A DNA stretch of 42,422 bases from Halioglobus sp. (GTDB lineage: Bacteria; Pseudomonadota; Gammaproteobacteria; Pseudomonadales; Halieaceae): the NCBI GenBank assembly GCA_020443325.1, contig JAGRIK010000019.1, positions 1-42,422 of the forward strand, given 5' to 3'. The notes below the pieces were generated by a model that did not search any database, was not told where the DNA came from, and worked only from the letters and a program-made list of their open reading frames with translations. The translations under genes were made by a program, and so were the position numbers. The first letter of the stretch is position 1, and each line of letters begins with the position of its first letter. Shown piece by piece: positions 14,100 through 39,055 of this stretch.

Positions 14100-14519
14100 A
14101 TGTATGTGAGGGAATTTGCAGAGCGCGACCGGGACGCAGTGATTGCGCTCTGGGAGGCCTGCCAGCTGACCCGACCCTGGAATGATCCGGACAAGGACAT
14201 CACACGGAAGCTGGCAGTCCAGCCGGAGCTGTTTCTGGTCGGCGAATTGGATGGCGGCATTATTGCCTCGGCCATGGCCGGGTACGATGGCCACAGAGGT
14301 TCGGTGTTTTATCTGGCGGTCGCACCCTGGTTGCAAAAAGCCGGTTACGGCCGAGTGCTAATGAAGGAAGTGGAAGAGCGTCTCACTGCAATGGGCTGCC
14401 CAAAACTCAATATTGTCGTTCGCAGTTCCAACCAGGACGTTCTGGACTTCTACCATAACCTCGGTTACACGACAGACGACGTCGTCAGCCTCGGCAGGCG
14501 ATTGATTCCCGATAGTTAA
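14100..14519 (+). CDS. ypeA: YpeA-type GNAT acetyltransferase
   Basis: A 139-residue GNAT protein close in length and sequence pattern to E. coli YpeA: IALWEACQLTRPWNDPDKDI, then FLVGELDGGIIAS, AGYDGHRGSVFYLAV, the CoA loop LQKAGYGRVLM and MGCPKLNIVVR, ending SLGRRLI. The function of YpeA is not established. I start at ATG 14100, preceded by GGGAGTG and aligned with the YpeA N-terminus, rather than at ATG 14070. Its TAA stop is interlocked with the stop of the convergent phosphatase gene (both share TTAA at 14516-14519), which marks the left border of the polysaccharide locus. Confidence 0.85.
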   Translation: MYVREFAERDRDAVIALWEACQLTRPWNDPDKDITRKLAVQPELFLVGELDGGIIASAMAGYDGHRGSVFYLAVAPWLQKAGYGRVLMKEVEERLTAMGCPKLNIVVRSSNQDVLDFYHNLGYTTDDVVSLGRRLIPDS

Positions 14520-15259
14520 GCGGGCGCGGTTGCGCTGGCCTCCGTAATCCCCAGGATCGATGCCGGTCGACCCTGCACGAGGTCATCGGCCGCGGCCTCA
14601 CCAATCAGCCGTGCGGCAGCGGCGCGGCCCGACGCCAACTCCGGCGGCCTGTAGTTGAGGTTGTGGGCATCGGAGGCCAGCACGCTCACCCAGCCGCGCT
14701 CCAGCATCTCGACGGCGCGCTGCTGCGCCATTGCCCCGAATTTTCCCACCACTGAACCAGCGGTCACCTGCAGCAGGCAGCCCGCCTCAAGAAAGGGCAG
14801 AAGCTTGTCCAGGGAACGCATCACATCCTTGTTGCGCTCCGGGTGGGCGATCATAGGGCGAATATTGCGCTCCAGCAGGTGACGCACCAGCTTGTCGGAG
14901 CCCGGCAGTACATGGCTGTGGGGAAACTCCAGCAACATGATCCGGAACCCGTTCTCCTGCCCGAGCATGGGCACCTCTTCCTGGTGAATCATCGCGAGGG
15001 CTTCCACGCTGAGACGCACCTCGCCACCAAGAGTCAGTTGCAGGTTGATCTGGTGCTGTGCCAGCGCTTTCCGGTAGGCGGCCAGTTGCGGTTGCAGTGT
15101 ACTCAACTGGTTTTCGTACCGCCCCGGATGGATATGCGGGGTAATCACCGAATGGGAGATGCCATTGGCCACCGCGAGGCGGGCCATATCCAGGGCCTCG
15201 TCGAGCGAATCAGGGCCGTCGTCGACGCCCGGCAACAGATGGCAGTGCAGGTCAATCAT
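14516..15259 (-). CDS. PHP-type tyrosine-protein phosphatase (CpsB/Wzb-like)
   Basis: A 247-residue manganese-dependent phosphotyrosine phosphatase of the PHP fold, the group that includes CpsB and YwqE. The first metal motif DLHCHLLPGVDDGP is at residues 3-16, with further metal ligands in TPHIHPGRY, GGEVRL, AHPERN and ASDAHNL. In polysaccharide loci such enzymes dephosphorylate the tyrosine-rich tail of the BY-kinase. The kinase gene lies in the divergent operon 2.3 kb away, which fits that role. It is read leftward, alone, from the control region it shares with the export genes. Gram-negative Wzc systems more often use a low-molecular-weight phosphatase, so this choice is noteworthy. Confidence 0.88.
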   Translation of the reverse strand: MIDLHCHLLPGVDDGPDSLDEALDMARLAVANGISHSVITPHIHPGRYENQLSTLQPQLAAYRKALAQHQINLQLTLGGEVRLSVEALAMIHQEEVPMLGQENGFRIMLLEFPHSHVLPGSDKLVRHLLERNIRPMIAHPERNKDVMRSLDKLLPFLEAGCLLQVTAGSVVGKFGAMAQQRAVEMLERGWVSVLASDAHNLNYRPPELASGRAAAARLIGEAAADDLVQGRPASILGITEASATAPA

Positions 15260-15287: not shown

Positions 15288-15373
15288 CAGTGCACTGATA
15301 TAATTAGAACAGATAGGTAAAATCAACTACCTAATGCGGAACGCTCAGATATAATGGCCGATTTGAAGCGTTC
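15288..15373. promoter_or_regulatory. Divergent control region of the polysaccharide locus: two -10 boxes and three dyads
   Basis: The 195-base gap 15260-15454 holds several signals. A perfect palindrome CAGTGCACTG is at 15288-15297. TATAAT occurs at 15299-15304 and again at 15350-15355. A dyad TAGGTA-N8-TACCTA is at 15314-15319/15328-15333. A third dyad, GAACGCT (15339-15345) and AGCGTTC (15367-15373), encloses the second TATAAT. Good -35 boxes are absent, so activator-dependent promoters are likely. The rest of the gap, near 15410-15445, has an A-run and a T-run but no GC stem, so I do not call a terminator. Confidence 0.45.
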
Positions 15374-15454
15374 TGGCAGTAGGGGTATCCTCCTCCGGTA
15401 CAGATTTATCTTAAAAAAAACAACGCTATTCCCCCGCTTTTTTGGCAGAGTACC

Positions 15455-16945
15455 GTGGCCGATTTATCATTAGTGAGAGAAATATTGAGCGGACGATTCG
15501 CATATCATGAGTCTGGGTTGACCGCGCGTAACTATCTCGTGGCAGCACTGCTTGTCGCTGCCACGGTGATGGTCGTACCTGCGTGGGCGCAGGAAGAGGA
15601 GGGCCTCATTGAAGGCACCACCAGTACAGCAGAGTCTGCGGCCCAGTCTGCATCGAGCACCCCTGAAGATTCCAGCGGGGGTGTTGCCGATCACGAGCTG
15701 GCTTTCGACTACGGCAACCTCACCTTCTATCCACTGCTCAACGTGGGACTTGGCTTCAGCAATGACCTCTACGACGACGAAGGCCAGAAGAAGAGCGCAG
15801 CCTTCACCACTACTCGCGCCGGCGGCGGGGTACAGGGGGAGAACCGCGGCCACCTGTATGGCGTGGAGTACTCGGCGGAGCGCTTCTGGTATCTGGACAA
15901 CGACATCCCGGACGACGACGAGATCAGCCAGCGCACAGTAGGCTACTGGGGCACAGGCTTTGATGTACGCAATAATCTCGACCTGGGCGTAGAGTACCTG
16001 GATTCCTACGATCCTCGCGGACAGGACGACCCGTTGCGCGACATCCGCGACACTACTACCGAGGAAGATCCGGACACCTGGACCCAGCTCGCCTACGGTG
16101 CCAATTACGGCTACGGCGCACCCGGGGCACAGGGACGCATAGAACTCGGTGCCTGTGAAACCTGCAAGCGCTATGACGACAACGACCAGGAATACCGCGA
16201 CAGGGACATCACCGACCTCGGCGCCACCCTGTATGTCCGCATGACCGGTCGCACCGAGGGCTTTGCCCAGATGGTGTACTCCGACTTCGACTACCGCAAC
16301 GACACACCCGATGACCCCGCCCTGGGCCGCAATCTCGACAGTGAGGAGTGGCGGTACATGCTGGGGGCCACCTGGCTGGCGTCAGAAAAAACCACCGGTA
16401 TTGCACGGATTGGCACGGTGAAAAAGGAATTCAAGGACCCGGTCCGCAATAACAGCAATTACGATGAAATTACCTGGGACGCGGTCCTGAACTGGACCCC
16501 CACATCCCGAGACAACATTGCCGTGGGATACTTCCGCATGCCCCAGGAGCCACTGGTGTGGGAACTGGACGAGTTGCAGGACGACTTTGTTGAAACCGAG
16601 CAGCTGAGCGTCGACTGGTCGCGCCAGTTGCGCGCTGACCTGGTCTTCGACGTCGGCGGCTACGCGGGAACCGCTGACTGGAAGCCCAGCGGTCGCAACG
16701 ATGACCTCTGGGGCGCCACGGCCGGCCTGCGCTTCAACCTGCCCCGATGGGGCTCGCTCGGCATCAGCTACTACCACCGGGAGCGCGACTCCAGCGACTC
16801 GGTCCATAACTACAGCGACGACGGGTTTATTATTGATTTCAATCTCGGCAGCCTATTCGGCTTCGGCGACAGTCGGGCACCGGCCATCTGCCTGCTGCGT
16901 GGTTTTTCTTCCAATAATGATTACAACGGCTTTTCCGGGTATTGA
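15455..16945 (+). CDS. Outer-membrane beta-barrel protein of the polysaccharide locus
   Basis: A 496-residue exported protein. A signal peptide ends at AWA-Q (about residue 45). Then comes a short acidic, Ser/Ala/Glu-rich linker, and from about residue 82 repeated amphipathic strands with alternating aromatic and charged residues (ELAFDYGNLTFYPLLNVGLG, GVEYSAERFWYL, LGISYYHRERD). These are characteristic of the BBP2-like barrels that accompany exopolysaccharide export genes. Likely location is the outer membrane, perhaps as a pore or partner for the Wza-like protein just downstream. The start is uncertain: GTG 15455 gives a long n-region, while TTG 15518 would give a compact signal peptide. 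Odd features are a CETC pair at about residue 230 and a C-terminal tail past the last apparent strand. Confidence 0.75.
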   Translation: MADLSLVREILSGRFAYHESGLTARNYLVAALLVAATVMVVPAWAQEEEGLIEGTTSTAESAAQSASSTPEDSSGGVADHELAFDYGNLTFYPLLNVGLGFSNDLYDDEGQKKSAAFTTTRAGGGVQGENRGHLYGVEYSAERFWYLDNDIPDDDEISQRTVGYWGTGFDVRNNLDLGVEYLDSYDPRGQDDPLRDIRDTTTEEDPDTWTQLAYGANYGYGAPGAQGRIELGACETCKRYDDNDQEYRDRDITDLGATLYVRMTGRTEGFAQMVYSDFDYRNDTPDDPALGRNLDSEEWRYMLGATWLASEKTTGIARIGTVKKEFKDPVRNNSNYDEITWDAVLNWTPTSRDNIAVGYFRMPQEPLVWELDELQDDFVETEQLSVDWSRQLRADLVFDVGGYAGTADWKPSGRNDDLWGATAGLRFNLPRWGSLGISYYHRERDSSDSVHNYSDDGFIIDFNLGSLFGFGDSRAPAICLLRGFSSNNDYNGFSGY

Positions 16946-16973
16946 TCCGGGCGATGCGGTATCGGTGTAGTAA

Positions 16974-17543
16974 ATGACGAAAGGGCTGTTAACCCGGATC
17001 TACAGGCTGGCCAGCAGGCTTCCACTGCTGGCGGCTGTAGTGTGGCTGCTGCCTCATGCGGGGCTGGCCCAGGAGGGTGAGAGTGCTGCCTATCACCTGT
17101 CGCCGGGGGATATCATCAAGGTGCATGTGATGGGCCAGGAAGATCTCAGCGTCGAAGTACCGGTGAGCGATACCGGCGAGATCATCTACCCGCTGCTGGG
17201 AGAGCTGAAGGTAGAGGGCCTCACCCGGGAGGAGACAGAGCGACTGGTTTACCAGAAGCTGAAGCCGGATTACCTGGTGGAACCAGTCGTGAGTGTCACG
17301 ATCGTGAAATACCGCCAGATCTTCCTGCAGGGCCAGGTGAAGCAAGCGGGACCCTATCCCTACACCCCCGGACTGAGCTTGCGCCGCGCGATACTGGACG
17401 CCGGCGGTTTTACCGACCTGGCCAACCAGGACAAGATTTACGTTGTGAACGAATTCGAACCGCAGGGCAAGGAGCGACAGGTAGATATGAATTACCAGCT
17501 CAAGCCCGGTGACATCGTCACCATCAAGGCCAGTTTCTTCTAA
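16974..17543 (+). CDS. Polysaccharide export protein, Wza/OtnA-like
   Basis: Outer-membrane polysaccharide export component, 189 residues. A signal peptide ends near GLAQ (about 33). The Poly_export domain follows (YHLSPGDIIKVHVMGQEDLS, VSDTGEIIYPLLGELKVEGLT), then one SLBB-like domain (IFLQGQVKQAGPYPYTPGLSLRRAILDAGGFT). It ends with the conserved LKPGDIVTI. It is much shorter than E. coli Wza (about 379) and has no lipobox cysteine, so it is the short soluble or periplasmic type. Such short forms need another outer-membrane protein, and the barrel gene immediately upstream is the obvious candidate. Its stop overlaps the start of the kinase gene by one base (TAATG). Confidence 0.9.
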   Translation: MTKGLLTRIYRLASRLPLLAAVVWLLPHAGLAQEGESAAYHLSPGDIIKVHVMGQEDLSVEVPVSDTGEIIYPLLGELKVEGLTREETERLVYQKLKPDYLVEPVVSVTIVKYRQIFLQGQVKQAGPYPYTPGLSLRRAILDAGGFTDLANQDKIYVVNEFEPQGKERQVDMNYQLKPGDIVTIKASFF

Positions 17544-19978
17544 TGAACAAGCACGCCGCCATCAATAACGACCAGTTGCTCAGCTCCCTGCTGGGGGAGA
17601 TGTCCGCAGGCCAGGCGGAAAAGAACGGCTTTGATGTCCTCGCCTACCTGCAGGTGGTGCTCAAGTACAAGTGGGGCATCCTCTCACTGGCCCTGCTGGT
17701 AGCCCTGCTATCCACCATTTATGTGTCCACCCTGGTGCCGCTTTACCAGGCCGAGACCTCCCTGCTGTTCGACCCGCCCTCCGCGAGCAACTACGGCACG
17801 GTGCGCGACCAAACCGCGATGGATGTCTACAGCAGTTACAGCCGCAACTTCCGCCTGTTCAAGGCGCAGCAGGAAATCATGCGCTCACGCAAATTCGCCG
17901 CGGAAATGGTGGATCGCTACAAGCTGTGGAGCCACCCGTATTTCGTGGCCCAGGCCGATGCCAGCGCCATCGAGCCGGGCTGGAAGACGGAAGTGCGCAA
18001 GTGGCTGCCCCCCTGGGCGCTGGATTTGAAGCAATGGGTGCCGGAGTGGCTGCTTGAGCTTACCCGCCCCGAGTTCCTGAGCCCACCGCAGCTCAGCGAT
18101 GCCCAGCTCAAGGCGCGCTACCGCGATGCCGCGATGGCCGCGGTGCGCGATGGCCTGACCATCGACGCCAACGAGGAGATCATGCTGATCAAGCTGGGCT
18201 TCGTGTCGCGCGACCCGGAATTTGCCGCCGACATGGCCAACAAGCTGGCGGATTACTACATCCGGCACGACCTGGAGTCGCGCATGGAGTCCTTCGCGGA
18301 GGCCACTTCCTGGCTCACGGAGCGCACCGCCGAGTTGCGCGAGAATGTGGTCAAGTCTGACCAGGAACTGCAGCAATTCCGCGAGCAGGAGAATCTCGTG
18401 AGCCTGGAGGGTGGCAGCATCCTGGGGCGTGAGGCGGAGGACGTGTTTCAACGCCTCACCGAGGCGCGCCAGAAAACGCAGTCCCTGAGCCTCGCACACG
18501 ACCGCCTCAACAACAGTAGCAGCTCCCTGAGCCTGCTGGCAGGCAGCCCGGAGTTGATCAAGTATCCGAGCGTGACCGAGGCACTGGCGGCGACGCTCGA
18601 CGCGGAAAAAAATATCGACCAGCTCGCCCGTGTGTATGGGCCCAAGCACCCGAAAATGATAGAAGCGCGCAGCGGCTACGACCGCCTGAAGGAAAAGCTG
18701 GCAGCGGAGCAGGCACTGGTCAAGCTGGGAGTCAGCGCAGACCTGGCGGCGGCCCGCGCAGAGGTGGAACGCCTGAGCGCCAAGTTTGACCTGCTCAAGG
18801 ACGAGGTACAGGAGACCGACAAGAAGAAATTCCAGCTGGAAGCACTGGAGCGCAACCAGCAGACCGACCAGGAGCTGTACGACCTGTTCGTCACCCGCTT
18901 CAAGGAGTTGAATATCGGCTCCGATGTCAGCTCGCCCAACGCCAAGATCATCGACGACGCCCAGGTGCCTGCCGCCCCGTACTGGCCCGACAAACCACGC
19001 CTGGTGATGATATACACCGTTGTCGCGCTCTTCCTCGGCGTCGTCCTGGCCTTCCTGCGTGAATACCTGGACAAGACCATCAAGAGTCCCGAGGAGGTCG
19101 AGGAAAAACTCGGGGTGCCGCTACTGGGCGGACTGGCACAGCTGGATATCGAACCCGGCAACGAGAACTCCGCGGAACGCATGTTTATCGACAAGAACAA
19201 GTCGCTGTTTGCCGAGTCCATCCGCACCATCCGCACCGGCATCATGCTGTCCGGACTGGACGACCCGCACAAGATCCTGGCCATCACCTCTACCGTGCCC
19301 GGCGAGGGCAAGACCACTGTCTCAATGAACATCGCCTGCGCACTGGGCCAGCTGGGTAAAGTACTGCTGATCGACGCCGACATGCGCCGTGCCGCGCTGG
19401 GCCCGCACTTCGGCTTTGCCCGCAACACCCCGGGGCTGGCCGATGTCGCTGCGGGCATCAAGCAACTCGACGAGTGCATCCACCATTTTGAGGAGGGTAA
19501 TATCGACCTCCTCCCGGCCGGGACGATTCCGCCCAACCCCCAGGAACTGCTGTCCTCCTCCCGCTTCGAGGAGATCCTGCGAGAGGTGTCCGGCAGGTAC
19601 GACCGGATCGTGATCGACACGGCCCCGACGCACCTGGTGAGTGACCCGATGCTGGTGGCGCGCTGGGCCTCCGCGCTGATCTACGTGGTCCGGGCCGAGA
19701 CCACTTACTACCAGCTGGCCCGGGAGCAACTGCGCGCCCTGGAAAAAGTCGGCAAGCCCATTCTGGGGGTCGTCCTCAACGGCGTGTCAGAGCACAGCAC
19801 GTCTCACCGGCGCTACCGTCGTTACGGCAGGAAAGGATACGGTTACGGCGGCTATGACGGCTACGGCATGCACCCCTATGCGGGTTACGTGGAAGCAGAC
19901 CAAACGAAGACGCCCGGGAGGCGCTGGCCCTGGAGCAGAAGGGCTGCTGAAGCGCCAGGACAGGACGGGCAACAATAA
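17543..19978 (+). CDS. Polysaccharide co-polymerase/BY-kinase (Wzc-like)
   Basis: An inner-membrane bacterial tyrosine kinase of 811 residues that sets chain length and drives export. A Wzz domain with a first membrane span at about residues 45-65 (GILSLALLVALLSTIY) is followed by a long periplasmic coiled-coil region. The second span is near residues 485-510 (PRLVMIYTVVALFLGVVLAFL). The cytoplasmic kinase domain has Walker A PGEGKTT at about 586-592, Walker A' LIDADMRRA around 609-617 and a Walker B region (IVIDTAPTH). The tail (about 757-782) holds eight tyrosines among Gly and Arg, the autophosphorylation cluster. Kinase and adaptor are fused, as in Gram-negative PCP-2a proteins. The PHP phosphatase of the divergent gene is the probable antagonist. 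Confidence 0.93.
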   Translation: MNKHAAINNDQLLSSLLGEMSAGQAEKNGFDVLAYLQVVLKYKWGILSLALLVALLSTIYVSTLVPLYQAETSLLFDPPSASNYGTVRDQTAMDVYSSYSRNFRLFKAQQEIMRSRKFAAEMVDRYKLWSHPYFVAQADASAIEPGWKTEVRKWLPPWALDLKQWVPEWLLELTRPEFLSPPQLSDAQLKARYRDAAMAAVRDGLTIDANEEIMLIKLGFVSRDPEFAADMANKLADYYIRHDLESRMESFAEATSWLTERTAELRENVVKSDQELQQFREQENLVSLEGGSILGREAEDVFQRLTEARQKTQSLSLAHDRLNNSSSSLSLLAGSPELIKYPSVTEALAATLDAEKNIDQLARVYGPKHPKMIEARSGYDRLKEKLAAEQALVKLGVSADLAAARAEVERLSAKFDLLKDEVQETDKKKFQLEALERNQQTDQELYDLFVTRFKELNIGSDVSSPNAKIIDDAQVPAAPYWPDKPRLVMIYTVVALFLGVVLAFLREYLDKTIKSPEEVEEKLGVPLLGGLAQLDIEPGNENSAERMFIDKNKSLFAESIRTIRTGIMLSGLDDPHKILAITSTVPGEGKTTVSMNIACALGQLGKVLLIDADMRRAALGPHFGFARNTPGLADVAAGIKQLDECIHHFEEGNIDLLPAGTIPPNPQELLSSSRFEEILREVSGRYDRIVIDTAPTHLVSDPMLVARWASALIYVVRAETTYYQLAREQLRALEKVGKPILGVVLNGVSEHSTSHRRYRRYGRKGYGYGGYDGYGMHPYAGYVEADQTKTPGRRWPWSRRAAEAPGQDGQQ

Positions 19979-20016
19979 TGCTATTGCTTAACAGGCACCG
20001 AGCGAGGGTTGGCACA

Positions 20017-21339
20017 ATGATCAGGCAATTCAGGAAAACAGTACTGGCAACGACACTGCTGGTGTGCAACCTTGCGCACGCCGCGCCCGATGAGGTGAGG
20101 GTGGAAACCGGCACCGATGATATCGGTGTGGACTTCTATCAACAAAATGATTTCTATGCCGCCACCCTCAATAGCCCGGAGAGCACGGCCGGCTTCTACG
20201 AGCGGCAGATCAACTGGATGCTGCAGAACGATTACCCTCCCGCATCCATCATCATGAGCTCGGTGGGCCGGGGAATGACCCTGGCGGATACGGCGTACTT
20301 CATGAGCAAGGCCAACCCGGAGCAGGCGGAGGCCATTTTCGCGCTGGCGGTGGACATCATGCCCACGCTGCCGGGCTGGGCGTGCAGCGCTGACAGCGGC
20401 ATGGCCAATCGCTACGACTCCCCGATCAACGCCGGCGAACTGCCCGCCAACCCCACATTGGCGACTTTTACCAGCCTGTACTTCGACCAGCACAAGCGCT
20501 TTATGGACTACCCCAACTGGCAGCAGAATGAAGGGCAGGCGACTATCAACGTAGATGAACTGCTGGATTTCAAGCAAAAGGAAATCGACCTGGCCGGGCG
20601 GGACAGCTGGTGGTACCGGCCCGATGACCGGGTGCACACCGATGTGATAATGGCAACCCTCTACCCCACCGGTCGCCGCGTGGTTATCGACGCCAGGCTG
20701 GAGGAGCTACAGAAGTTACGGCAGAGCGGCACTGCGCAGGTACCCGTGATGCTCCTGTACGCGGAAACGGGCCAGGTACCACTCAGCGACCTCCAGAACG
20801 TGGCTGATCGCGAGGTCCAGTCCAATCAAGCGCCCTACGACGACTTTGGCATCAGCGCCAGCGATGTCATCGCCCGCTTCACCACTACGGGTGAGCGCGC
20901 CTCCCCCACCCGCGACTGGCACAAGGGCGACCACCATTTACAGGTCCGGGTCGCGGAGTTACAGGAGCTGTTTGAGGTTCCCAAAAAAGAGGACGTGAGC
21001 GCGGCGGACTGGCAGCGCTGGGAGCAGGAACTGGACAAGGCACAGGCATTGACCCCGCTGCGGATGAGCCTGTACCAGAGCGCCGGAGAGGACCGCTGGC
21101 TGAGCGAGCCCGGCCTGGTGGCGGTGGCAGCGGAGCGCCAGATGGAGGCCCTGCCCGTGGTGTTCTTTTACCACACCAACCAGCGCCAGGCCTGTGGCGT
21201 ACCTGCAGACTGCATCGACCACGTGAAAGAAGCCGTACAGCAGGGCAGCCAGCGGGCGGATTTCTCACCGATTGCACCACCGCCACGGCCGTCCGGACCG
21301 GCGGTTTACCCGCCGTTGCCGCCGGTGAGCCCCAATTGA
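20017..21339 (+). CDS. Unrecognised secreted protein of the polysaccharide locus
   Basis: I do not recognise this 440-residue protein. ATG 20017 is preceded by GAGGG at 8 bases and opens a clear signal peptide (MIRQFRKTVLATTLL, cleavage after LAHA). A longer frame from ATG 19978, overlapping the kinase stop, is possible. The mature part is acidic, with many Trp, Tyr and Gln. Two similar segments appear: VVIDARLEELQKL ending in VPVMLLYAETGQVP, and LVAVAAERQMEA ending in LPVVFFYHTNQ-ACGVP. They suggest an internal duplication. The C-terminus is proline-rich (IAPPPRPSGPAVYPPLPP). No enzyme motif is visible. Its place between the BY-kinase and RfaH genes argues for a periplasmic part in polymer export or modification. 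Confidence 0.7.
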   Translation: MIRQFRKTVLATTLLVCNLAHAAPDEVRVETGTDDIGVDFYQQNDFYAATLNSPESTAGFYERQINWMLQNDYPPASIIMSSVGRGMTLADTAYFMSKANPEQAEAIFALAVDIMPTLPGWACSADSGMANRYDSPINAGELPANPTLATFTSLYFDQHKRFMDYPNWQQNEGQATINVDELLDFKQKEIDLAGRDSWWYRPDDRVHTDVIMATLYPTGRRVVIDARLEELQKLRQSGTAQVPVMLLYAETGQVPLSDLQNVADREVQSNQAPYDDFGISASDVIARFTTTGERASPTRDWHKGDHHLQVRVAELQELFEVPKKEDVSAADWQRWEQELDKAQALTPLRMSLYQSAGEDRWLSEPGLVAVAAERQMEALPVVFFYHTNQRQACGVPADCIDHVKEAVQQGSQRADFSPIAPPPRPSGPAVYPPLPPVSPN

Positions 21340-21872
21340 ACCGCAGTAAGCCAGCCCGGGACGACAGCACCGTGACCACCGCACGCTGGTACGTGGTGAA
21401 AACCAAGGTGCGCGGCGAGCATGTGGCACAGGAAAACCTCATTCGCCAGGGCTACGAGGCCTGGCTGCCGCAGGTGAGCTGCGAGCGCCGCCGCCGGGGT
21501 AAGTGGCTGCCCGACAGCGAGCCGCTGTTCCCGGGCTACCTGTTTGTAGAGCTTGAAGCGGGGGTACAGAATTTCTCTCCCATCCGGTCCACCAGGGGGG
21601 TGTCAAACCTGGTGAGCTTCGCCCGCGAGCCCAAGGCGATGCCCAGCGGCGCAGTCGAGGCCCTGCGGCAGCTGCACGACAACCTCGAGAATACAGCGGG
21701 GCATGAGACCTTCGAGAAAGGCCAGAAAGTACGTCTCATGGACGGCCCCTTCAGAGGGTGGGAGGGTGTGTACGACACCCGCCGATCAGACGAACGGGTG
21801 ATCATCCTGTTACAGGTACTGGGCAAACAACAGCCCCTGGTGTTCGCCAGGGACGACGTGGTGCCCGCCTGA
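21336..21872 (+). CDS. rfaH: RfaH-type transcription antiterminator (NusG paralogue)
   Basis: A 178-residue specialised NusG paralogue that binds paused RNA polymerase at ops sites and lets it read through long polysaccharide operons. The NGN domain spans about residues 15-120 (ARWYVVKTKVRGEHVAQENL, EAWLPQV, LFPGYLFVEL, STRGVSNLVSF), followed by a linker and a KOW region (FEKGQKVRLMDGPFRGWEGVY). The features favour RfaH over housekeeping NusG: a locus-embedded gene, the FPGYLFVEL segment, and an exact ops sequence 105 bases after its stop. The start is TTG 21336 overlapping the previous stop (TTGA); GTG 21372 is an alternative that would still keep the full NGN domain. Confidence 0.9.
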   Translation: MNRSKPARDDSTVTTARWYVVKTKVRGEHVAQENLIRQGYEAWLPQVSCERRRRGKWLPDSEPLFPGYLFVELEAGVQNFSPIRSTRGVSNLVSFAREPKAMPSGAVEALRQLHDNLENTAGHETFEKGQKVRLMDGPFRGWEGVYDTRRSDERVIILLQVLGKQQPLVFARDDVVPA

Positions 21873-21912
21873 ACACGCGGTAACGCTAAGAAAAGGCCAC
21901 AGCTGCACCCGG

Positions 21913-21940
21913 TGTCCAATGCGTACCACGCATCCGGACA
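21913..21940 (+). promoter_or_regulatory. Leader hairpin 1 between rfaH and the ops site
   Basis: A two-part stem: TGTCC (21913-21917) with GGACA (21936-21940), and ATGCGT (21919-21924) with ACGCAT (21928-21933) around a three-base loop. It has no T-run, so it is not a standard terminator. It may help pause polymerase before the ops site. Confidence 0.5.
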
Positions 21941-21950
21941 TCGCGCTCTA

Positions 21951-21975
21951 TGCGAGACACGATGAGTGTCATGCA
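21951..21975 (+). promoter_or_regulatory. Leader hairpin 2 directly before the ops site
   Basis: GACAC (21956-21960) pairs with GTGTC (21966-21970) around a five-base loop, extended by TGC (21951-21953) with GCA (21973-21975) across a small internal loop. It ends two bases before the ops sequence, a position that suits a pause-stabilising RNA hairpin. Confidence 0.5.
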
Positions 21976-21976
21976 G

Positions 21977-21988
21977 GGCGGTAGCGTG
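21977..21988 (+). promoter_or_regulatory. ops element (RfaH recruitment site), exact GGCGGTAGCGTG
   Basis: The 12 bases GGCGGTAGCGTG match the core of the enterobacterial ops/JUMPstart element that pauses RNA polymerase and loads RfaH onto the non-template strand. It stands in the untranslated leader, 105 bases after the rfaH stop and 43 bases before the AsnB-GT start, at the head of about 20 kb of glycosyltransferase and transport genes. A weaker relative, GCGGTAACGC, occurs at 21877-21886, just after the rfaH stop. The match and the location next to an rfaH gene make the assignment strong. Confidence 0.85.
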
Positions 21989-22031
21989 CCTGCAATACCA
22001 ACCCACAGGAAACCCAGCGGACCCAGCCACC

Positions 22032-24989
22032 ATGTGCGGCATCGCAGCCATCTATGCCTACACGCCTTCAGCGCCCCCGGTAAATCCGGCGGAGTTGAGC
22101 CGCATCCGCGACCAGATGCAAACGCGCGGTCCCGACGGCCACGGCGCCTGGCTCAGCAACAACCAACGCGTGGGCCTTGCGCACCGCCGACTGTCCGTCA
22201 TCGACCTGAGTGACGCTGCAGCCCAGCCCATGCAAACCCCCGACGGGCATGTTCACATCACCTACAACGGAGAAATCTACAACTACCAGGCACTGCGATC
22301 AGGCCTGCAGGACAAGGGCTACCAGTTCACCACCCGCTCCGACACCGAAGTGCTCCTGCATCTCTACCGGGAGGAAGGCGAAAATATGGTGCGCCACTTG
22401 CGGGGCATGTTCGCCTTCGCCATCTGGGATGAACAGAAGCAGGGCATGCTGCTGGCCCGGGACCCGTATGGCATAAAGCCCCTGTATTACGCCGATGACG
22501 GCAACACGCTGCGCATCGCCTCCCAGGTCAAAGCCCTGCTGGCAGGCGGACAGGTACCGCAGGAACCCGACCCCGCAGGCATGGTGGGCTTTTACCTGCT
22601 GGGCAGCGTGCCAGAACCATTTACCACATACGCCGCGATCAGGGCGCTGCCCGCCGGATGCACGATGTGGCTGACAGCAGCCGGGGCCGAGCAGCCCAGG
22701 CCGTTTTTTTCCATCACCGATGCCTGGACGCAGGCGCAGGCGGAACCCGCGGCACCCAAGGAGATCCAGCGGGAGGTGCGCCAGGCAATGCTGGATTCGG
22801 TCGAGCACCATTTGGTCGCGGATGTACCGGTGGCCATCTTTCTTTCCGCGGGAGTAGACTCCGGCGCCATTCTCGGGCTGATGCGCGAATTGGCTCCCGA
22901 GGCAACAATCCGGGCGGTCACCCTGGTCTTCGAGGAATATGTGGGAAGCCAGGATGACGAATCCCCCCTGGCCGAAAAGGTAGCCGCCCTGTACGGTGCA
23001 GAACACACCCGGCGCACTGTCACCCAGGCGGAATTCCAGGAAGACCTGCCTGCGATCCTGGCAGCGATGGACCAGCCCAGCATCGACGGTATCAATGCCT
23101 GGTTCATCAGCAAGGCGGCGAGGGAGCTTGGCATCAAGGTCGCCCTGTCCGGACTGGGTGGCGATGAACTGTTTGGCGGCTATCCCTCATTCCGGGACGT
23201 GCCGCGCTGGCAGCGTTACCTCAGGCTCCCCTCGAAACTGCCGTTACTGGGAAAAGCCGTCCGGACCCTCGCTGCCGGGATGCTGGCCAATTCGAAGTAT
23301 GCCAAGGCCGCCGGCATGATCGAGTACGGGGGCACTGCCGCAGGCGCATGGCTGCTCCGGCGCGGTATTTTCATGCCCTGGGAGTTGCAGTCGTTACTCC
23401 CTGCGGAGCTTGTTGCAGCGGGAATGCAGCGCCTGCAGCCGCTCGCGGCCATAGAGAGCACCATGGATGCCTCGAAAAATGCCTCGTTTGCAAATATCGC
23501 CCGCATGGAATCGGCCCTCTACATGCGCAACCAACTGCTGCGTGACGCCGATTGGGCGGGCATGGCCCATTCCGTCGAACTGCGCGTCCCTCTGGTGGAT
23601 GTTCGGTTATTACAGCGGCTTGCCCCCCTGTTACTTGCGCAGGAAAGAATTGAGGGTAAACAATGGCTGGCCCGCAGCCCGCGGTGCGCACTGCCTGGTG
23701 AGATAGTCGCCCGCAACAAGACGGGGTTTACCACCCCTATCCACTACTGGATGAAATCCACTTTACAAGGCGACGCAAAAACACTCGGCGGCAGCGCTGC
23801 AAACCATGGCAACGAACACTGGTCCCGGTCCTGGGCGCGCTTCGTTATCGGTGCCGGGGCATCGGTGACACCGGTTACCTTGTTGCGGGATTTTCGCGAG
23901 GACAAGCGCACGAGCATGGAGCACTATGCGGACCAATTATTCACGAGCCTGAACACCAACGAGAGTAAAGCTTTTGGCATAGCGCAGTACCAACCCCGCC
24001 TGGGCAACTTCACCCGGCAACTGCCACAAGCCGCCAATTTACAGATGCGCTTCGCGCGCTACGTCGGCTACCCCTGGCAGGCACGAAAAATCGACAGCGG
24101 TATCTACCATATTATCGATCACGGCTATGCTCACTTATTGCAGGTCATTGACCCGGGACGCGCAGTCATCACCGTACACGACATTATCCCGCTGCTTGCG
24201 GGCAGGGGCCTGATTCCAGGTATGCAGATGCGGCGACAGTCGCTCGCGGAATACTCGTTCTCATGGCTCAAACGCGCCGCGAGACTGATTGCGGTGAGCG
24301 AGAACACCCGGTCTGACATCATCGAGCACTGCGGCTGTGACCCGGAGAAAGTCGATGTGGTGTACCAGGGCCTGGGCGATGAATTTGTGCCGCTGACAGG
24401 TGAATCAAAGGAGAGCCTCCGGCGTTCCCTGGGCCTTCCCGCTGACGACCGGAAACTGGTGCTGGTCACCGGGAGCGCGCACTATAAAAACCACCCGACG
24501 AGCCTGAAGATCCTGCAAAAATTACACGCACAACACGGCGATGAACTGGCCCTGGTGCACCTGGGCGGCGAGAGAGCTGTCTGGAAGAGTGCCCTTGCGG
24601 AGTCTGGCTACAATCGTCCTGTGATCGAGCTGACCGGATTGGGCAAAGAGCAACTGGTCCGCCTGTACAACGCGGTAGACTGCCTGTTGTTCCCCTCCTG
24701 GTACGAGGGGTTTGGCTGGCCGCCGCTGGAGGCGATGGCATGCGGCACGCCTGCGGTCACCTCCAACCGCGCCTCTCTCCCGGAAATCATGGGCTCCGTG
24801 GGGCCCACGTTCGAGGCGGCAGATGTCGACGGTATGGCGGCGTGTCTTGGGCGGTTGCTGTTCGAGCCTGGGTATCGGCAGGAGCAGGTCGACAGGGGGA
24901 TAGCGCACGCGGCGAAGTTCAGCTGGGACCGCGCCTCGCGCGAGGTGACAAACGTTTATCACAAACTCCGTGAGAGGCAGGCGGCATGA
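22032..24989 (+). CDS. asnB: Asparagine synthase (glutamine-hydrolysing) fused to a GT4 glycosyltransferase
   Basis: A 985-residue two-enzyme protein. Residues 1-about 611 are a class II glutamine amidotransferase/asparagine synthase. Cys2 after the initiator Met is the glutaminase nucleophile (MCGIAAIY), SAGVDS at 272-277 is the PP-loop, and LGGDELFGGY follows GLSG at about 375-384. Residues from about 612 (VTPVTLLRDFREDKRTSMEHYADQ) to the end are a GT4 family glycosyltransferase: AVITVHDIIP, RLIAVSENTRSDI, VTGSAHYKNH and the E-x7-E motif EGFGWPPLE at 892-900. ATG 22032 is required for the Cys2 nucleophile. In polysaccharide loci such synthases probably amidate acidic sugars. An in-frame GTG at 23865 marks the likely ancestral start of the glycosyltransferase. 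It overlaps the permease gene by ATGA. Confidence 0.9.
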   Translation: MCGIAAIYAYTPSAPPVNPAELSRIRDQMQTRGPDGHGAWLSNNQRVGLAHRRLSVIDLSDAAAQPMQTPDGHVHITYNGEIYNYQALRSGLQDKGYQFTTRSDTEVLLHLYREEGENMVRHLRGMFAFAIWDEQKQGMLLARDPYGIKPLYYADDGNTLRIASQVKALLAGGQVPQEPDPAGMVGFYLLGSVPEPFTTYAAIRALPAGCTMWLTAAGAEQPRPFFSITDAWTQAQAEPAAPKEIQREVRQAMLDSVEHHLVADVPVAIFLSAGVDSGAILGLMRELAPEATIRAVTLVFEEYVGSQDDESPLAEKVAALYGAEHTRRTVTQAEFQEDLPAILAAMDQPSIDGINAWFISKAARELGIKVALSGLGGDELFGGYPSFRDVPRWQRYLRLPSKLPLLGKAVRTLAAGMLANSKYAKAAGMIEYGGTAAGAWLLRRGIFMPWELQSLLPAELVAAGMQRLQPLAAIESTMDASKNASFANIARMESALYMRNQLLRDADWAGMAHSVELRVPLVDVRLLQRLAPLLLAQERIEGKQWLARSPRCALPGEIVARNKTGFTTPIHYWMKSTLQGDAKTLGGSAANHGNEHWSRSWARFVIGAGASVTPVTLLRDFREDKRTSMEHYADQLFTSLNTNESKAFGIAQYQPRLGNFTRQLPQAANLQMRFARYVGYPWQARKIDSGIYHIIDHGYAHLLQVIDPGRAVITVHDIIPLLAGRGLIPGMQMRRQSLAEYSFSWLKRAARLIAVSENTRSDIIEHCGCDPEKVDVVYQGLGDEFVPLTGESKESLRRSLGLPADDRKLVLVTGSAHYKNHPTSLKILQKLHAQHGDELALVHLGGERAVWKSALAESGYNRPVIELTGLGKEQLVRLYNAVDCLLFPSWYEGFGWPPLEAMACGTPAVTSNRASLPEIMGSVGPTFEAADVDGMAACLGRLLFEPGYRQEQVDRGIAHAAKFSWDRASREVTNVYHKLRERQAA

Positions 24990-25867
24990 GCGACCGCAGC
25001 GCACAGCAGCGCCAGGCAGATTACTTCGGCCAGGAGCACGTCACGGTTATCGAACCCCACGGCAGCGTGTTCGACCTGAAGCTGCGCGAACTGTGGAGCT
25101 ACCGCGACCTGATTGTGCTGTTTGTGCGTCGCGATTTCGTCGCGCAGTACAAGCAGACGATACTCGGCCCCGCGTGGCATCTTATCCAGCCCCTGCTGAC
25201 CACGGTAATGTTCACCATCGTCTTCGGCAAGATTGCGCAGCTGTCCACTGACGGTGTACCACCGTTCCTGTTCTATATGGCCGGCACCGTCATCTGGACG
25301 TATTTCGCCAATGTGCTCACCGCGACCTCGGGCACGTTTACTACCAACTCGCACATTTTCGGCAAGGTGTATTTCCCCAGGCTGGCAATACCGGTGGCGA
25401 CCCTGTTTTCCAAGCTGATCGCGTTTGCCATCCAGTACGTGTTCTTCCTGGGGTTCCTGGCGTGGTATTTTTTCGATGGTGCAGCGGTACAACCCAACGC
25501 CTGGGTTCTGCTCACCCCTGTATTACTGCTGATGATGGCGGCGACCGGATTCAGTGGCGGTATTATCATTTCCGCAATGACCACCCGTTACCGCGACCTG
25601 ACCGTGCTGGTCAGTTTTGGGGTGCAGTTATTGATGTATGCGACGCCCATTATTTACCCGGTGTCCAGCCTGCCGGAAAAATGGCAGTTCTGGGTGTCGC
25701 TTAACCCCATCGCGCCGATTGTGGAAGCCTTCCGCTACGCCTACCTGGGACAGGGGACGCTGGATCTCCCCATGCTGGGGGTGAGCGGGCTGGTGATACT
25801 GGTGCTGCTGATCGTGGGAACCGTGATGTTCAACGCGATAGAGCGCACCTTTATGGACACGGTGTAG
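24986..25867 (+). CDS. ABC-2 polysaccharide exporter, permease (Wzm-like)
   Basis: Inner-membrane permease, 293 residues, of the Wzm/TagG family that exports finished, lipid-linked polysaccharide. An N-terminal cytoplasmic part with the LWSYRDLIVLFVRRDFVAQYKQTILGPAW signature leads into six predicted membrane spans (for example LLTTVMFTIVFG, LIAFAIQYVFFLGFLAWYFF, VLLTPVLLLMMAATGF, LVILVLLIVGTVMF). The conserved SLNPIAPIVEAFRYAYLG precedes the last span. The start ATG overlaps the asnB-GT stop (ATGA), and the ATP-binding subunit gene follows after 10 bases, giving the expected Wzm-Wzt pair. Confidence 0.93.
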   Translation: MSDRSAQQRQADYFGQEHVTVIEPHGSVFDLKLRELWSYRDLIVLFVRRDFVAQYKQTILGPAWHLIQPLLTTVMFTIVFGKIAQLSTDGVPPFLFYMAGTVIWTYFANVLTATSGTFTTNSHIFGKVYFPRLAIPVATLFSKLIAFAIQYVFFLGFLAWYFFDGAAVQPNAWVLLTPVLLLMMAATGFSGGIIISAMTTRYRDLTVLVSFGVQLLMYATPIIYPVSSLPEKWQFWVSLNPIAPIVEAFRYAYLGQGTLDLPMLGVSGLVILVLLIVGTVMFNAIERTFMDTV

Positions 25868-25877
25868 GCCGCACACG

Positions 25878-27149
25878 ATGTCGAATACCGTGATCAAGGT
25901 GGAAGACCTGTCCAAGTACTATCGCCTTGGGTTGATCGGCGGCGCTACCCTGCGCGAGGACATCAATCGCTGGCTGGCAAAAATCCAGGGCAAGCCCGAC
26001 CCCCTGCTCAAGATCGGGCAGCAGGATCAATCCCATCGCAAGGGTGACGAGATATGGGCGCTGAAAAATGTAAACTTTGATGTAAAGGAAGGGGAGATTC
26101 TGGGGATTGTCGGTCGCAATGGTGCCGGCAAGAGCACGCTGTTGAAAATCCTCTCCAGAATTACGGCGCCCAGCGCGGGTCGCATCACCCTTAAAGGCCG
26201 GGTTGGCAGCCTGCTTGAGGTCGGCACCGGGTTTCACCCGGAACTCACAGGGCGCGAGAATATCTACCTCAATGGCACGATCCTGGGAATGAGAAAGGCA
26301 GAGGTCGACCGCAAACTCGAGGAGATTGTCGAGTTTGCCGAGATGGGCAAGTTTATCGACACGCCGGTAAAACGGTACTCGTCGGGCATGACGGTACGCC
26401 TCGCTTTTGCCGTGGCAGCACACCTTGAGCCTGAGATTCTTGTCATCGACGAGGTACTTGCAGTCGGCGATGCTGCATTTCAGAAGAAGTGTGTCGGGAA
26501 AATGCAGGCTATTGCCGGCGGCGGACGAACAGTACTGTTTGTAACGCACAACATGGGCACGGCAGCGGAACTTTGTGACAGGGGCCTGGTGATCGCGGAC
26601 GGCCGCGTGGCCTATGACGGCGCTATCGAGGATGCGATCAGGGAGTATTTGCGGCCATCGAGCACGCAGAAACTGGAACTTGGGAAGCAGCACTTCCGCG
26701 GTCATTTACTGGATGATATTTCGATACGCACATTATCCGTTAACGGCATAGACCTCGGGCAACAGATACTGATCACCCCGGAGAGCGACCTGGTGTTTAC
26801 GTTCTCCGGCACCAGCAACATTGCGCTAAAGGACTTTGACCTGTTGATAACGCTGCACAAGGATGGCGCGAGAATCGTGACGGTACACGACAGTGAGCCC
26901 GGTACCGCATTGCTCGAAGGTCATTTCACTTCCACCATCACGATACCCGCTCGCACGCTTCGGCCGGGAACCTATACGGTTGGCCTGGGCGGGGAGCGAC
27001 CCGGTGGCGGGCAATGGTTCGCCGGTACCGACCTGGGTGAAATAACGATTCTGGAAGGCTGGGCACCGGGTTATGAACGCAGAAGCGTTGGCGTCATCAA
27101 TATCAGCGCGGTCGGCGAGCGGCGCATGGAGAGCGGGCCTGCACGCTAG
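25878..27149 (+). CDS. ABC polysaccharide exporter, ATP-binding protein with C-terminal glycan-binding domain (Wzt-like)
   Basis: Energises the Wzm permease. The 423-residue product has Walker A GRNGAGKST at 79-87, the signature YSSGMTVRLAFAVA, Walker B EILVIDEVLAVGD and a switch His in FVTHN, all within residues about 1-250. The remaining 170 residues form the beta-rich Wzt C-terminal domain (DLVFTFSGTSN, TSTITIPARTLRPGTYTVGLG). In the established systems that domain recognises the non-reducing end of the polymer. Its presence suggests export of a finished chain with a particular terminal structure, although no capping methyltransferase or kinase is in the window. Confidence 0.93.
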   Translation: MSNTVIKVEDLSKYYRLGLIGGATLREDINRWLAKIQGKPDPLLKIGQQDQSHRKGDEIWALKNVNFDVKEGEILGIVGRNGAGKSTLLKILSRITAPSAGRITLKGRVGSLLEVGTGFHPELTGRENIYLNGTILGMRKAEVDRKLEEIVEFAEMGKFIDTPVKRYSSGMTVRLAFAVAAHLEPEILVIDEVLAVGDAAFQKKCVGKMQAIAGGGRTVLFVTHNMGTAAELCDRGLVIADGRVAYDGAIEDAIREYLRPSSTQKLELGKQHFRGHLLDDISIRTLSVNGIDLGQQILITPESDLVFTFSGTSNIALKDFDLLITLHKDGARIVTVHDSEPGTALLEGHFTSTITIPARTLRPGTYTVGLGGERPGGGQWFAGTDLGEITILEGWAPGYERRSVGVINISAVGERRMESGPAR

Positions 27150-27186
27150 GGATCAAGGCTTCGAAACCATTTCTTAAACAAAAGGT

Positions 27187-28323
27187 ATGACACTGAACAC
27201 TCACGGAAAAATATTCCAGATAGGCAGGCCCAACGTCGGCGACAGAGAGCGCATGAAACTGCGCCTTGATGAGATACTGGCCAATAACTACTTAACCAAC
27301 AACGGCCCCCTGGTGCAGGAACTGGAGGACAAGCTCGCCCGTTACTGCGGCGTCAAGCACTGCATAGCGATGTCAAACGGCACCGTTGCACTCGAGTTGG
27401 CCATCCGCGCGACGGACCTGCAAGATGAAGTCATCGTGCCCTCCATGACCTTTATTGCGACGGCACATGCGTTGCAGTGGCAGGGAATCAGGCCGCTCTT
27501 CGCAGACATCGACAACACCACATTGAATATCTGCCCCGCGAGTGTGGAAAAACTCATCACGCCCAGGACCACAGGAATCATCGGAGTCCACCTGTACGGC
27601 AGGCCCTGCGATATCGAGGGGCTGCAACGCATCGCCGACGAGCACGGCCTGAAACTCCTGTTCGATTCGGCCCACGCGTTTGGCAGCAGCCACAACGGTA
27701 TGAGAGTGGGCAACTTTGGTGATTGTGAAGCCTTCAGTTTTCACGCGACAAAAGTGTTCAATACGTTCGAGGGCGGCGCGGTCACGACCAATGATGATGA
27801 ACTGGCCAGGAAACTGCGACTGATGCGCAACTTCGGGTTTGAGGGTGAGGACAACGTTTCCTATATTGGCACCAACGGAAAAATGTCGGAAATCTGTGCC
27901 GCGATGGGACTGACCAATCTTGAGAGCCTGGATGGCTTCATCGCCATCAACAAGGAAAACTACAGCCGCTATCGCGATGAGCTCTGTGGTATCGAGGGTA
28001 TCTCTCTCGAGCCCTATAATGCCGATGAGGAGAGCAACTACCAGTACGTGATCCTACGGGTCGATAGCGCGCGCTTCGGCAAAAGCAGGGACGCGCTGAA
28101 AAGCAAACTCGAAAGTGAGGGTATCATGGCGCGTCGCTACTTCTATCCGGGTTGTCACCGGATGCAGCCCTACCGCTCGCTCTATCCGGGCCTGGGCAGC
28201 AGCCTGCCCGTGACGGAATCATTCAGTGAGGAGGTGCTCGCCTTGCCCAACGGCAAACAGATAACCCCGGAGGAAGTGAGCTGGGTGTGCCAGCTGATCA
28301 GGGCATTTGGCAGCGAATCATGA
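27187..28323 (+). CDS. DegT/DnrJ/EryC1-family sugar aminotransferase
   Basis: A PLP-dependent aminotransferase, 378 residues, that puts an amino group on a nucleotide-linked keto-sugar. The PLP lysine is Lys189 in FHATKVFNTFEGGA; VPSMTFIATAHAL, FADIDNTTLNI and LLFDSAHAFGS are further family landmarks. The NNYLTNNGPLV opening and the HATK-FNTFEGG motif resemble the VioA-type enzymes that make 4-amino-4,6-dideoxy sugars, but the exact product is an inference. The next gene is an acetyltransferase whose start overlaps this stop (ATGA), so the pair probably makes an N-acylated amino sugar. The 4,6-dehydratase that should supply its substrate is not in the window. Confidence 0.88.
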   Translation: MTLNTHGKIFQIGRPNVGDRERMKLRLDEILANNYLTNNGPLVQELEDKLARYCGVKHCIAMSNGTVALELAIRATDLQDEVIVPSMTFIATAHALQWQGIRPLFADIDNTTLNICPASVEKLITPRTTGIIGVHLYGRPCDIEGLQRIADEHGLKLLFDSAHAFGSSHNGMRVGNFGDCEAFSFHATKVFNTFEGGAVTTNDDELARKLRLMRNFGFEGEDNVSYIGTNGKMSEICAAMGLTNLESLDGFIAINKENYSRYRDELCGIEGISLEPYNADEESNYQYVILRVDSARFGKSRDALKSKLESEGIMARRYFYPGCHRMQPYRSLYPGLGSSLPVTESFSEEVLALPNGKQITPEEVSWVCQLIRAFGSES

Positions 28324-28997
28324 GCAGCAGCAAGAAACAGCCGCTATTGGTATTCGGCGCTGGGGGACACGGCAAGTCCGTCCTGGATACCCTGCAGGCC
28401 GAAGGCAGGTATGACGTGGTGGGCTTGATCGACTCGACCAGGGAAGTGGGCTACCGGGTGCTCGGTGTCCCCGTGCTGGGCGGGGAAAGCGACCTGCCCG
28501 CGATTGTGCAGGAACTGGGTTGCCATAACGTCTTCGTCGCCGTCGGCGATAACTTCCAGCGCAGTGCAATATCCGGGCGCCTGCTGGCCGCCTTTCCCGA
28601 TATCGCGTTTGTGACGCCCGTGCACCCTTCGGCCGTGGTAAGCCCCAGCGCAGAACTCGGCGCCGGCACTGTCGTCATGGCCGGCGCGGTGATCAACGCG
28701 CAAAGCGTCATCCATCCCGGCTGCATCATCAACACCCGCGCGAGCGTCGACCACGATTGCACACTGGCGCCCTTCAGCAGCGTGGCCCCGGGGGCCACAC
28801 TGGGTGGCGGCGTGGTCGTGGGACAGCGCACCGCAATTGGCCTGGGCAGCAGTGTCAGCCAACAGCTGGAAATCGGTGCGGATACGGTGATCGGCACAGG
28901 CGCCTGTGTGGTGAGCGGGATACCCGCATCCGTCGTGGCCTACGGGTGTCCCTGTAAAGTGATGCGATCGCGCAAGAGTGATGAGCGCTATCTCTGA
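28320..28997 (+). CDS. NeuD/PglD-family sugar O- or N-acetyltransferase
   Basis: A 225-residue acyltransferase with an N-terminal Rossmann-like domain (PLLVFGAGGHGKSVLDTL, VGLIDSTREVG) and a C-terminal left-handed beta-helix of hexapeptide repeats (VVMAGAVINAQSVIHPGCIINTRASVDHDCTLAP). His in SVDHDC is the expected general base. Acetyl-CoA is the usual donor. NeuD acts on sialic acid precursors, while PglD-like relatives acetylate 4-amino sugars; next to a DegT aminotransferase and without sialic acid synthase genes, the PglD-like role is more likely. ATG 28320 overlaps the upstream stop; the gene overlaps the next glycosyltransferase by 17 bases. Confidence 0.88.
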   Translation: MSSSKKQPLLVFGAGGHGKSVLDTLQAEGRYDVVGLIDSTREVGYRVLGVPVLGGESDLPAIVQELGCHNVFVAVGDNFQRSAISGRLLAAFPDIAFVTPVHPSAVVSPSAELGAGTVVMAGAVINAQSVIHPGCIINTRASVDHDCTLAPFSSVAPGATLGGGVVVGQRTAIGLGSSVSQQLEIGADTVIGTGACVVSGIPASVVAYGCPCKVMRSRKSDERYL

Positions 28998-29976: not shown

Positions 29977-30007
29977 TGCGCTGCCGCCATGGCCACGGTG
30001 CGTACGC

Positions 30008-31916: not shown

Positions 31917-31952
31917 TCGAATGTTTCGCTATTGCCCGATGGCACTGAGACC

Positions 31953-33098: not shown

Positions 33099-33104
33099 CA
33101 GGCA

Positions 33105-34040: not shown

Positions 34041-34050
34041 CACCAGCCGT

Positions 34051-35217: not shown

Positions 35218-35236
35218 AATCCCCGGGGCACTATTG

Positions 35237-39045: not shown

Positions 39046-39055
39046 AATCGTACGT

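Follow-up and report, generated by a model that had tools for sequence, protein, structure and literature searches.

An rfaH-family gene followed by its own ops element in a Halioglobus polysaccharide cluster: one member of a recurrent arrangement

Inside a polysaccharide gene cluster of Halioglobus sp., an rfaH-family gene is followed, 104 bases past its stop, by an exact 12-base ops element, GGCGGTAGCGTG, and the same pairing of RfaH with a site of its own is met repeatedly at other loci. The window, meaning the whole stretch of 42,422 nucleotides analysed here, is an entire contig (C141) of a 4.7 Mb assembly that comprises 365 contigs and is about 90% complete. We infer that RfaH binds this ops, that one transcript covers both parts of the cluster, and that the distal part depends on RfaH. 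The locus is probably a dedicated rfaH-ops module within a polysaccharide operon, where RfaH would be recruited at the ops behind its gene and would carry the polymerase through the distal 20 kb.

As listed in Table 1, the cluster begins with a short series of proximal genes that leads into rfaH. In total, 22 genes run on a single strand from 15455 to 41172, and the gaps between them do not exceed 37 bases apart from one of 159 bases, which is the largest of the run, separates rfaH from the next gene and holds ops. In the proximal part (15455-21339, plus strand) the intergenic gaps are at most 28 bases, and rfaH, when read from its TTG start, overlaps the stop of the preceding gene. The roughly 20 kb of unidirectional downstream genes reported in the preliminary description were recovered as same-strand genes from 22032 to at least 41172. 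The relative G006 has the same cluster, with protein identities of 71-89% over the compared genes, and its same-strand run past ops ends about 22 kb on.

Several side observations were made on the gene content. In G006 the leader is kept, as is the glycosyltransferase half of the first gene past ops, but the synthase half has been lost (L274, 30-1142). Besides the 453-aa product of the proximal part, a 477-aa protein (35234-36667) gave no Pfam or NCBIfam match under the limits applied, and the G006 counterparts of these two proteins show 74% and 83% identity, respectively. Divergent to the cluster start lies a CpsB/CapC-family gene, whose product is perhaps a phosphatase that pairs with the Wzc-like kinase.

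Table 1. Positions of genes and leader elements in the window
Feature	Position	Strand	Basis and remarks
CpsB/CapC-family gene	14516-15259	-	divergent to cluster start
Promoter-like site	15295-15323		before the cluster
Promoter-like site	15442-15470		at the cluster start
Beta-barrel protein	15455-16945	+	Pfam/NCBIfam matches; proximal gene
Polysaccharide export protein	16974-17543	+	Pfam/NCBIfam matches; proximal gene
Wzc-like chain-length/tyrosine-kinase protein	17543-19978	+	Pfam/NCBIfam matches; proximal gene
453-aa protein	19978-21339	+	without Pfam or NCBIfam match at the limits used; proximal gene
rfaH-family gene	21336-21872	+	TIGR01955, PF02357; start codon TTG (21336) or GTG (21372)
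Predicted hairpin 1	21910-21943	+	fold; inner palindrome ATGCGT-ACC-ACGCAT
Predicted hairpin 2	21956-21970	+	fold; GACAC-GATGA-GTGTC
ops element, exact 12 bases	21977-21988	+	GGCGGTAGCGTG; single exact match in the window
Asparagine-synthase-like half fused to glycosyltransferase	22032-24989	+	Pfam/NCBIfam; first gene past ops
Distal cluster: ABC exporter pair, sugar aminotransferase, acetyl-/acyltransferases, several glycosyltransferases, epimerase, others	24986-41172	+	Pfam/NCBIfam; reaches near contig end

The protein passes the RfaH model TIGR01955 (149.9 bits, cut-off 144.5) and matches the NGN domain PF02357. It falls below the cut-offs of a second RfaH model, NF006534 (113 vs 124), and of the models for housekeeping NusG (TIGR00922, 59.9 vs 135.7 bits), UpxY (NF033644, 72.7 vs 100 bits) and LoaP (NF033641, 59.8 vs 125 bits). 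Its closest solved structures are RfaH chains (8.4e-20), which we take to be those of E. coli RfaH. Residues K10, Q24, R40, E48, F51, P52, T72, R73, G74 and R138 of E. coli RfaH are kept; among these, F51 and P52 are RNA-polymerase-binding residues. In the alignment to the solved chain, H20, R16 and T68 are replaced by N, V and P. These three positions belong to the ops-contacting set, of which K10, Q24, R40, T72, R73 and G74 are kept; the kept residues would speak for, and the three replacements against, an RfaH that loads at its own ops. A NusG-domain search of the same genome returned the window RfaH and no housekeeping NusG, the latter presumably missing because the assembly is incomplete.

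In PMC7593976, K10 and R73 of RfaH are named for DNA contact and E48, I93 and F130 for autoinhibition; at the autoinhibition positions the window protein keeps E48, with V in place of I93 and Y in place of F130. AlphaFold2, supplied with 52 sequences, predicted the KOW domain of the window RfaH as a beta-barrel (mean pLDDT 87.8, pTM 0.65). The KOW domain of the control L272, which is 96% identical to E. coli RfaH and was run with 51 of the same rows, likewise came out as a beta-barrel, although free E. coli RfaH is described as alpha-helical in PMC13015549. Hence, the prediction says nothing on autoinhibition, and the beta-barrel result was dropped as evidence for a constitutively active beta-fold.

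The exact ops core that the preliminary description had placed 105 bases after the gene thus stands, at a distance of 104 bases, and it occurs here in the extended form GCAG-ops-CCTGCA. Genome-wide there are two exact matches, the second of which lies on contig C121, apparently within a coding frame as judged by eye; that frame we take, again by eye, to be enoyl-CoA hydratase-like. A degenerate relative of the site had also been noted just behind the rfaH stop. The letters GCGGTAACGC are indeed present at 21877-21886, but as an ops copy they are unsupported and at chance level: 4 of 12 positions mismatch, 165 of 500 shuffled leaders were as good or better, and the copy is absent in G006. A stem enclosing ops (TGCAGG...CCTGCA) was rejected as a conserved structure; it is perfect in the window, and the pairing over 51 sites equals that of shuffled sequences (p 0.45, offset 0).

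The pair of gene and site is conserved in close relatives. Fifteen of 18 genomes searched in the genus gave some match, and relatives of the window RfaH with at least 39% identity occur in five of the 18. All five carry an exact ops 104-125 bp after the gene, the stop-to-ops distances being 104 (the window genome, G000), 106 (G006) and 125 bases (G010, G009 and G001). The other matches in the genus are NusG-like or partial, with 23-28% identity, and ops was found at none of them. The nearest named locus, Halioglobus sp. HKST-UBA215 (L192), shares 86% RfaH identity. Loss of the site where the gene is kept, the outcome that the preliminary description regarded as damaging, was not seen in the genus; across the order, 66 of 95 RfaH-like genes are without an exact ops within 600 bp.

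The order-wide sample was drawn by a TIGR01955 search of 293 genomes, in which 93 places were listed at E up to 1.4e-26, the window included. G278, cut by a contig edge, was left out, the other genus loci were added and duplicate loci were removed, giving 95 RfaH-like loci and 15 NusG/other loci, two weaker RfaH-like places being counted among the 15; other weak or partial TIGR01955 matches lie outside these counts. An exact ops on the gene's strand lies downstream within 600 bp in 29 of the 95 loci and within 300 bp in 26, four of the 95 having fewer than 600 bases downstream. The count becomes 30 within 1000 bases, and 35 within 600 bases when up to one mismatch is allowed. The reversed, complement and reverse-complement words were each found at 0/95, and 200 permuted words gave a mean of 0.005 loci (maximum 1). 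Exact ops occurs at none of the 15 NusG/other loci. Upstream of rfaH, exact ops was found pointing away in 4/95 and on the same strand in 1/95. Among the 29 linked loci, 12 of the sample's 47 family codes are represented, and L092, one of the 66 unlinked loci, has an exact ops 834 bases downstream. As an exact ops is missing from the 600 bases behind these 66 genes, the arrangement is common rather than universal, and the family does not require linkage.

A second sample was taken from named GTDB genomes by an alignment-based scan that yielded 568 relatives. Among the best 80 of the 568, namely those most like the window protein, 26 have an exact ops within 600 bases downstream (74 of the 80 had the full 600 bases), compared with 0/80 for the three control words. 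Five of these 80 loci were already in the order-wide sample; when they are excluded, 23 of 75 carry an exact ops. The named carriers include Halioglobus, Seongchinamella, Amphritea, Granulosicoccus, Gallionella, Tepidicella, Burkholderiaceae and Oxalobacteraceae records, and two carriers titled as a Planctomycetaceae MAG and a Bacteroidetes MAG are probably mis-binned. A related RfaH was found in 215 plasmid records; stretches from two of them were inspected, and neither carries an exact ops.

Same-strand homologues of the polysaccharide cluster lie within 8 kb after the gene in 32 of 40 linked-site loci (20/24 plus 12/16) and in 30 of 85 unlinked rfaH loci (20/46 plus 10/39), loci with less than 3 kb downstream being excluded. 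It should also be pointed out that a variant, TGCGGTAGCCTG, stands behind rfaH where ops would lie, and does so in several families: in L095 and L111-L115, which are six of the 66, and in L226, L261 and L267. As far as its letters tell, it may possibly be a diverged ops with an RfaH specificity of its own. When any linked site was scored (exact, one mismatch or TGCGGTAGCCTG; 41 of 95 rows) against none, at least 20 changes were required on a quick tree of the 95 RfaH-like and 5 NusG proteins, a tree with many weak forks and two long branches that meet. Thus, linkage has been gained and lost often.

The linked sites are conserved beyond the 12-base core. Fifty-one of them share the extended consensus GYAG-GGCGGTAGCGTG-YCTGAA. 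In the upstream flank, G stands at -4 in 37, A at -2 in 33 and G at -1 in 42 sites; downstream, C or T is found at +13 in 49, C at +14 in 39, T at +15 in 34, G or A at +16 in 47, and A at +17 and at +18 in 33 each. At 17 other exact ops (plus strand, 30 loci L162-L191) the flanks show such preferences weakly or not at all; this comparison set is mixed in that it holds a few sites near rfaH, either divergent (G172) or 834 bases downstream (G045). On both strands of the same loci there are 31 exact ops, 16 of them inside long open frames and 8 partly like the extended form. Judged by their letters, the linked sites have the appearance of functional elements some 22 bases long, and many of the remaining ones resemble chance matches.

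Counts over whole genomes agree with a small number of targets where the site is linked. Thirty genomes, namely G123 with its one-mismatch site and 29 whose linked site is exact, contain 58 exact ops, of which 29 are linked; the reversed word has 52 matches, more than the remaining 29 ops. Of the 29 genomes with an exact linked site, 14 have no other exact ops. By comparison, 54 genomes with an RfaH but no exact linked site within 600 bases, a set that includes divergent cases, hold 128 exact ops vs 84 control matches, with up to 13 per genome. The pattern fits one operon served in the linked set and some wider target sets in the unlinked one.

The leader between rfaH and the distal genes is predicted to fold with unusual stability. 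The fold of 21873-21990 has -51.5 kcal/mol (z -4.06), and 0 of 200 shuffles were equally stable. Two hairpins before ops, which the preliminary description had noted with slightly different limits, were recovered in this fold, the second being the smaller. Comparison with G006 shows that all 8 pairs of the outer stem of hairpin 1 are kept, with one two-sided and one one-sided change, that its inner part is mostly lost, and that hairpin 2 is weakened; two further two-sided changes fall in a three-pair stem in a poorly aligned part. As this comparison comprises two sequences, it offers little evidence. The suggestion of a composite pause leader is a weak one: the outer stem of hairpin 1 is kept in one relative, but hairpin 2 is weakened there and the ops-enclosing stem shows no covariation over 51 sites. 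Neither JUMPstart (RF01707) nor any other family of the whole Rfam library matched within 21700-22300 at E up to 1, and among 20 related loci JUMPstart gave one sub-threshold match (26 vs 35 bits). No Shine-Dalgarno sequence well placed before 22032 was found by eye. A scan limited to the sigma-70 consensus found no sigma-70-like promoter in the leader; a promoter there is possible, the scan knowing that consensus only.

In relatives, a second regulator often accompanies the pair. A MarR_EPS gene (TIGR04176) lies close to rfaH in 10 of 14 genomes, and 8 of these adjoin a linked site or variant; no MarR_EPS match was found in the window genome, G006, G009 or G063. A profile built from two MarR_EPS members retrieved 53 distinct genes in the fetched loci, the lowest scores being doubtful, and ops with up to two mismatches lies within 400 bases upstream of 26 of these 53. 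The palindrome GTTCAN-N3-NTGAAC is present upstream of 27 of the 53 MarR_EPS-like genes (L006, L058, L004, L046, L077, L093 and others), compared with a mean of 0.04/53 and a maximum of 1 in random pieces of the same loci. Where the gene order is rfaH, ops, marR, the palindrome often begins 50-65 bases before ops. It is a candidate operator of the MarR_EPS family. The window has another palindrome, ATGCGT-ACC-ACGCAT, at the corresponding position.

Taken as a dedicated module, the locus would work as follows. Transcription from a promoter before 15455 would cover the proximal genes and rfaH, and the polymerase would then pause at ops, 104 bases past the rfaH stop. RfaH would bind the exposed non-template strand at ops and remain on the polymerase, where it would exclude NusG and Rho and help to bring ribosomes to the next gene. 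The distal 20 kb would thereby be finished, the proximal part of the operon supplying the RfaH needed for it.

Other explanations have to be weighed against this mechanism. That ops is a chance 12-mer match can hardly be credited. This genome does contain a second exact match, which seems to lie in a coding frame; however, the site behind rfaH is not due to chance, because it was found at 29/95 and 26/80 loci compared with 0 for the control words in either set, and at 0/15 NusG/other loci. A more serious alternative, unlikely in our estimate, is that RfaH acts in trans in the ordinary way: the distal part would have its own promoter in the leader, ops would be a normal 5'-leader element, and the adjacency would come from regulator and target being inherited as a transferable block. 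The lability of the linkage on the quick tree (at least 20 changes, 41/95 rows with any linked site) agrees with this, as does the excess of exact ops over the reversed word (128 vs 84) in the 54 genomes without an exact linked site. The operator-like palindrome upstream of ops in the MarR_EPS relatives points the same way, as it would imply a transcription start there. In the window, however, rfaH overlaps the preceding gene and the sigma-70 scan gave no promoter-like site in the leader, and in the linked-site genomes ops elsewhere is not above background.

It has also been proposed for linked RfaHs, in PMC13015549, that the protein acts co-translationally in cis without ops, an open beta-fold RfaH being caught by the polymerase that transcribes it; ops would then be a pause or a relic. 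The same preprint, dated 2026, argues for ops-free action in cis by putative monomorphic, operon-linked RfaHs, which it reports to be active like the E48A mutant, and the beta-barrel KOW predicted for the window RfaH would be in keeping with this. Yet the E. coli-type control was predicted as a beta-barrel too, so that the prediction does not discriminate, and the exact 12-mer and its extended flanks are kept across many families, unlike a relic. We consider ops-free action at this locus quite improbable.

With loading of the operon-encoded RfaH at its own ops as our preferred reading, we tentatively suggest, at somewhat less than even chance, that the linked loci form a so far unnamed class in gamma- and betaproteobacteria. 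In such a class an operon-encoded RfaH would keep ops-dependent loading and serve a single operon, as a step between ops-free cis control and the E. coli-type trans control of many operons. Some members of the class would also have a MarR_EPS repressor site immediately before ops that regulates initiation, a single leader then governing the start of a polysaccharide operon as well as its completion. The mode of recruitment of operon-encoded NusG paralogues is given as unknown in PMC7593976. A linked RfaH with an exact, conserved and often genome-unique ops opens this question to a test in which a single 12-base site is altered. Should ops prove necessary, dispersed targets would not be required for site-specific recruitment, and the proposed order of events in RfaH evolution would change.

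Compared with known systems, the window resembles E. coli RfaH with ops/JUMPstart in its TIGR01955 family, its exact 12-base ops, its long envelope operon and the lack, by eye, of a well-placed ribosome site. It differs in that rfaH lies inside the target cluster with ops between it and the distal genes, whereas E. coli rfaH is unlinked, and in that its leader has no Rfam match, JUMPstart included, at E up to 1. For ops beside rfaH as a class, no report was found in the open-licence literature without supplements (including PMC7593976, PMC13015549, PMC7819879, PMC2864571, PMC6748792 and PMC7247339). UpxY of Bacteroides and TaA of Myxococcus are NusG paralogues encoded within their own operons (PMC7593976), so the regulator gene lies inside the operon served, as in the window; unlike UpxY, the window RfaH is below the UpxY cut-off (72.7 vs 100 bits) and has a recognisable ops. 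The RfaH clusters CL2-CL8 (Wang et al. 2020, PMC7593976) have rfaH near envelope or exopolysaccharide genes, as here, and CL4 adjoins an HTH regulator, but the main text of that paper, supplement aside, reports no ops beside rfaH for them. AnfA1 of the Serratia entomophila plasmid pADAP, according to PMC6748792, is a distant RfaH homologue tightly linked to afp with an ops-type site before the operon, and it shares with the window both the linked regulator and the site ahead of the operon. That system is a plasmid-borne anti-feeding prophage cluster, whereas the arrangement in the window is chromosomal, concerns polysaccharide genes and is found repeatedly across an order. What appears distinct here, as far as sequence can tell, is the linked, exact-ops and often single-site arrangement across an order and beyond.
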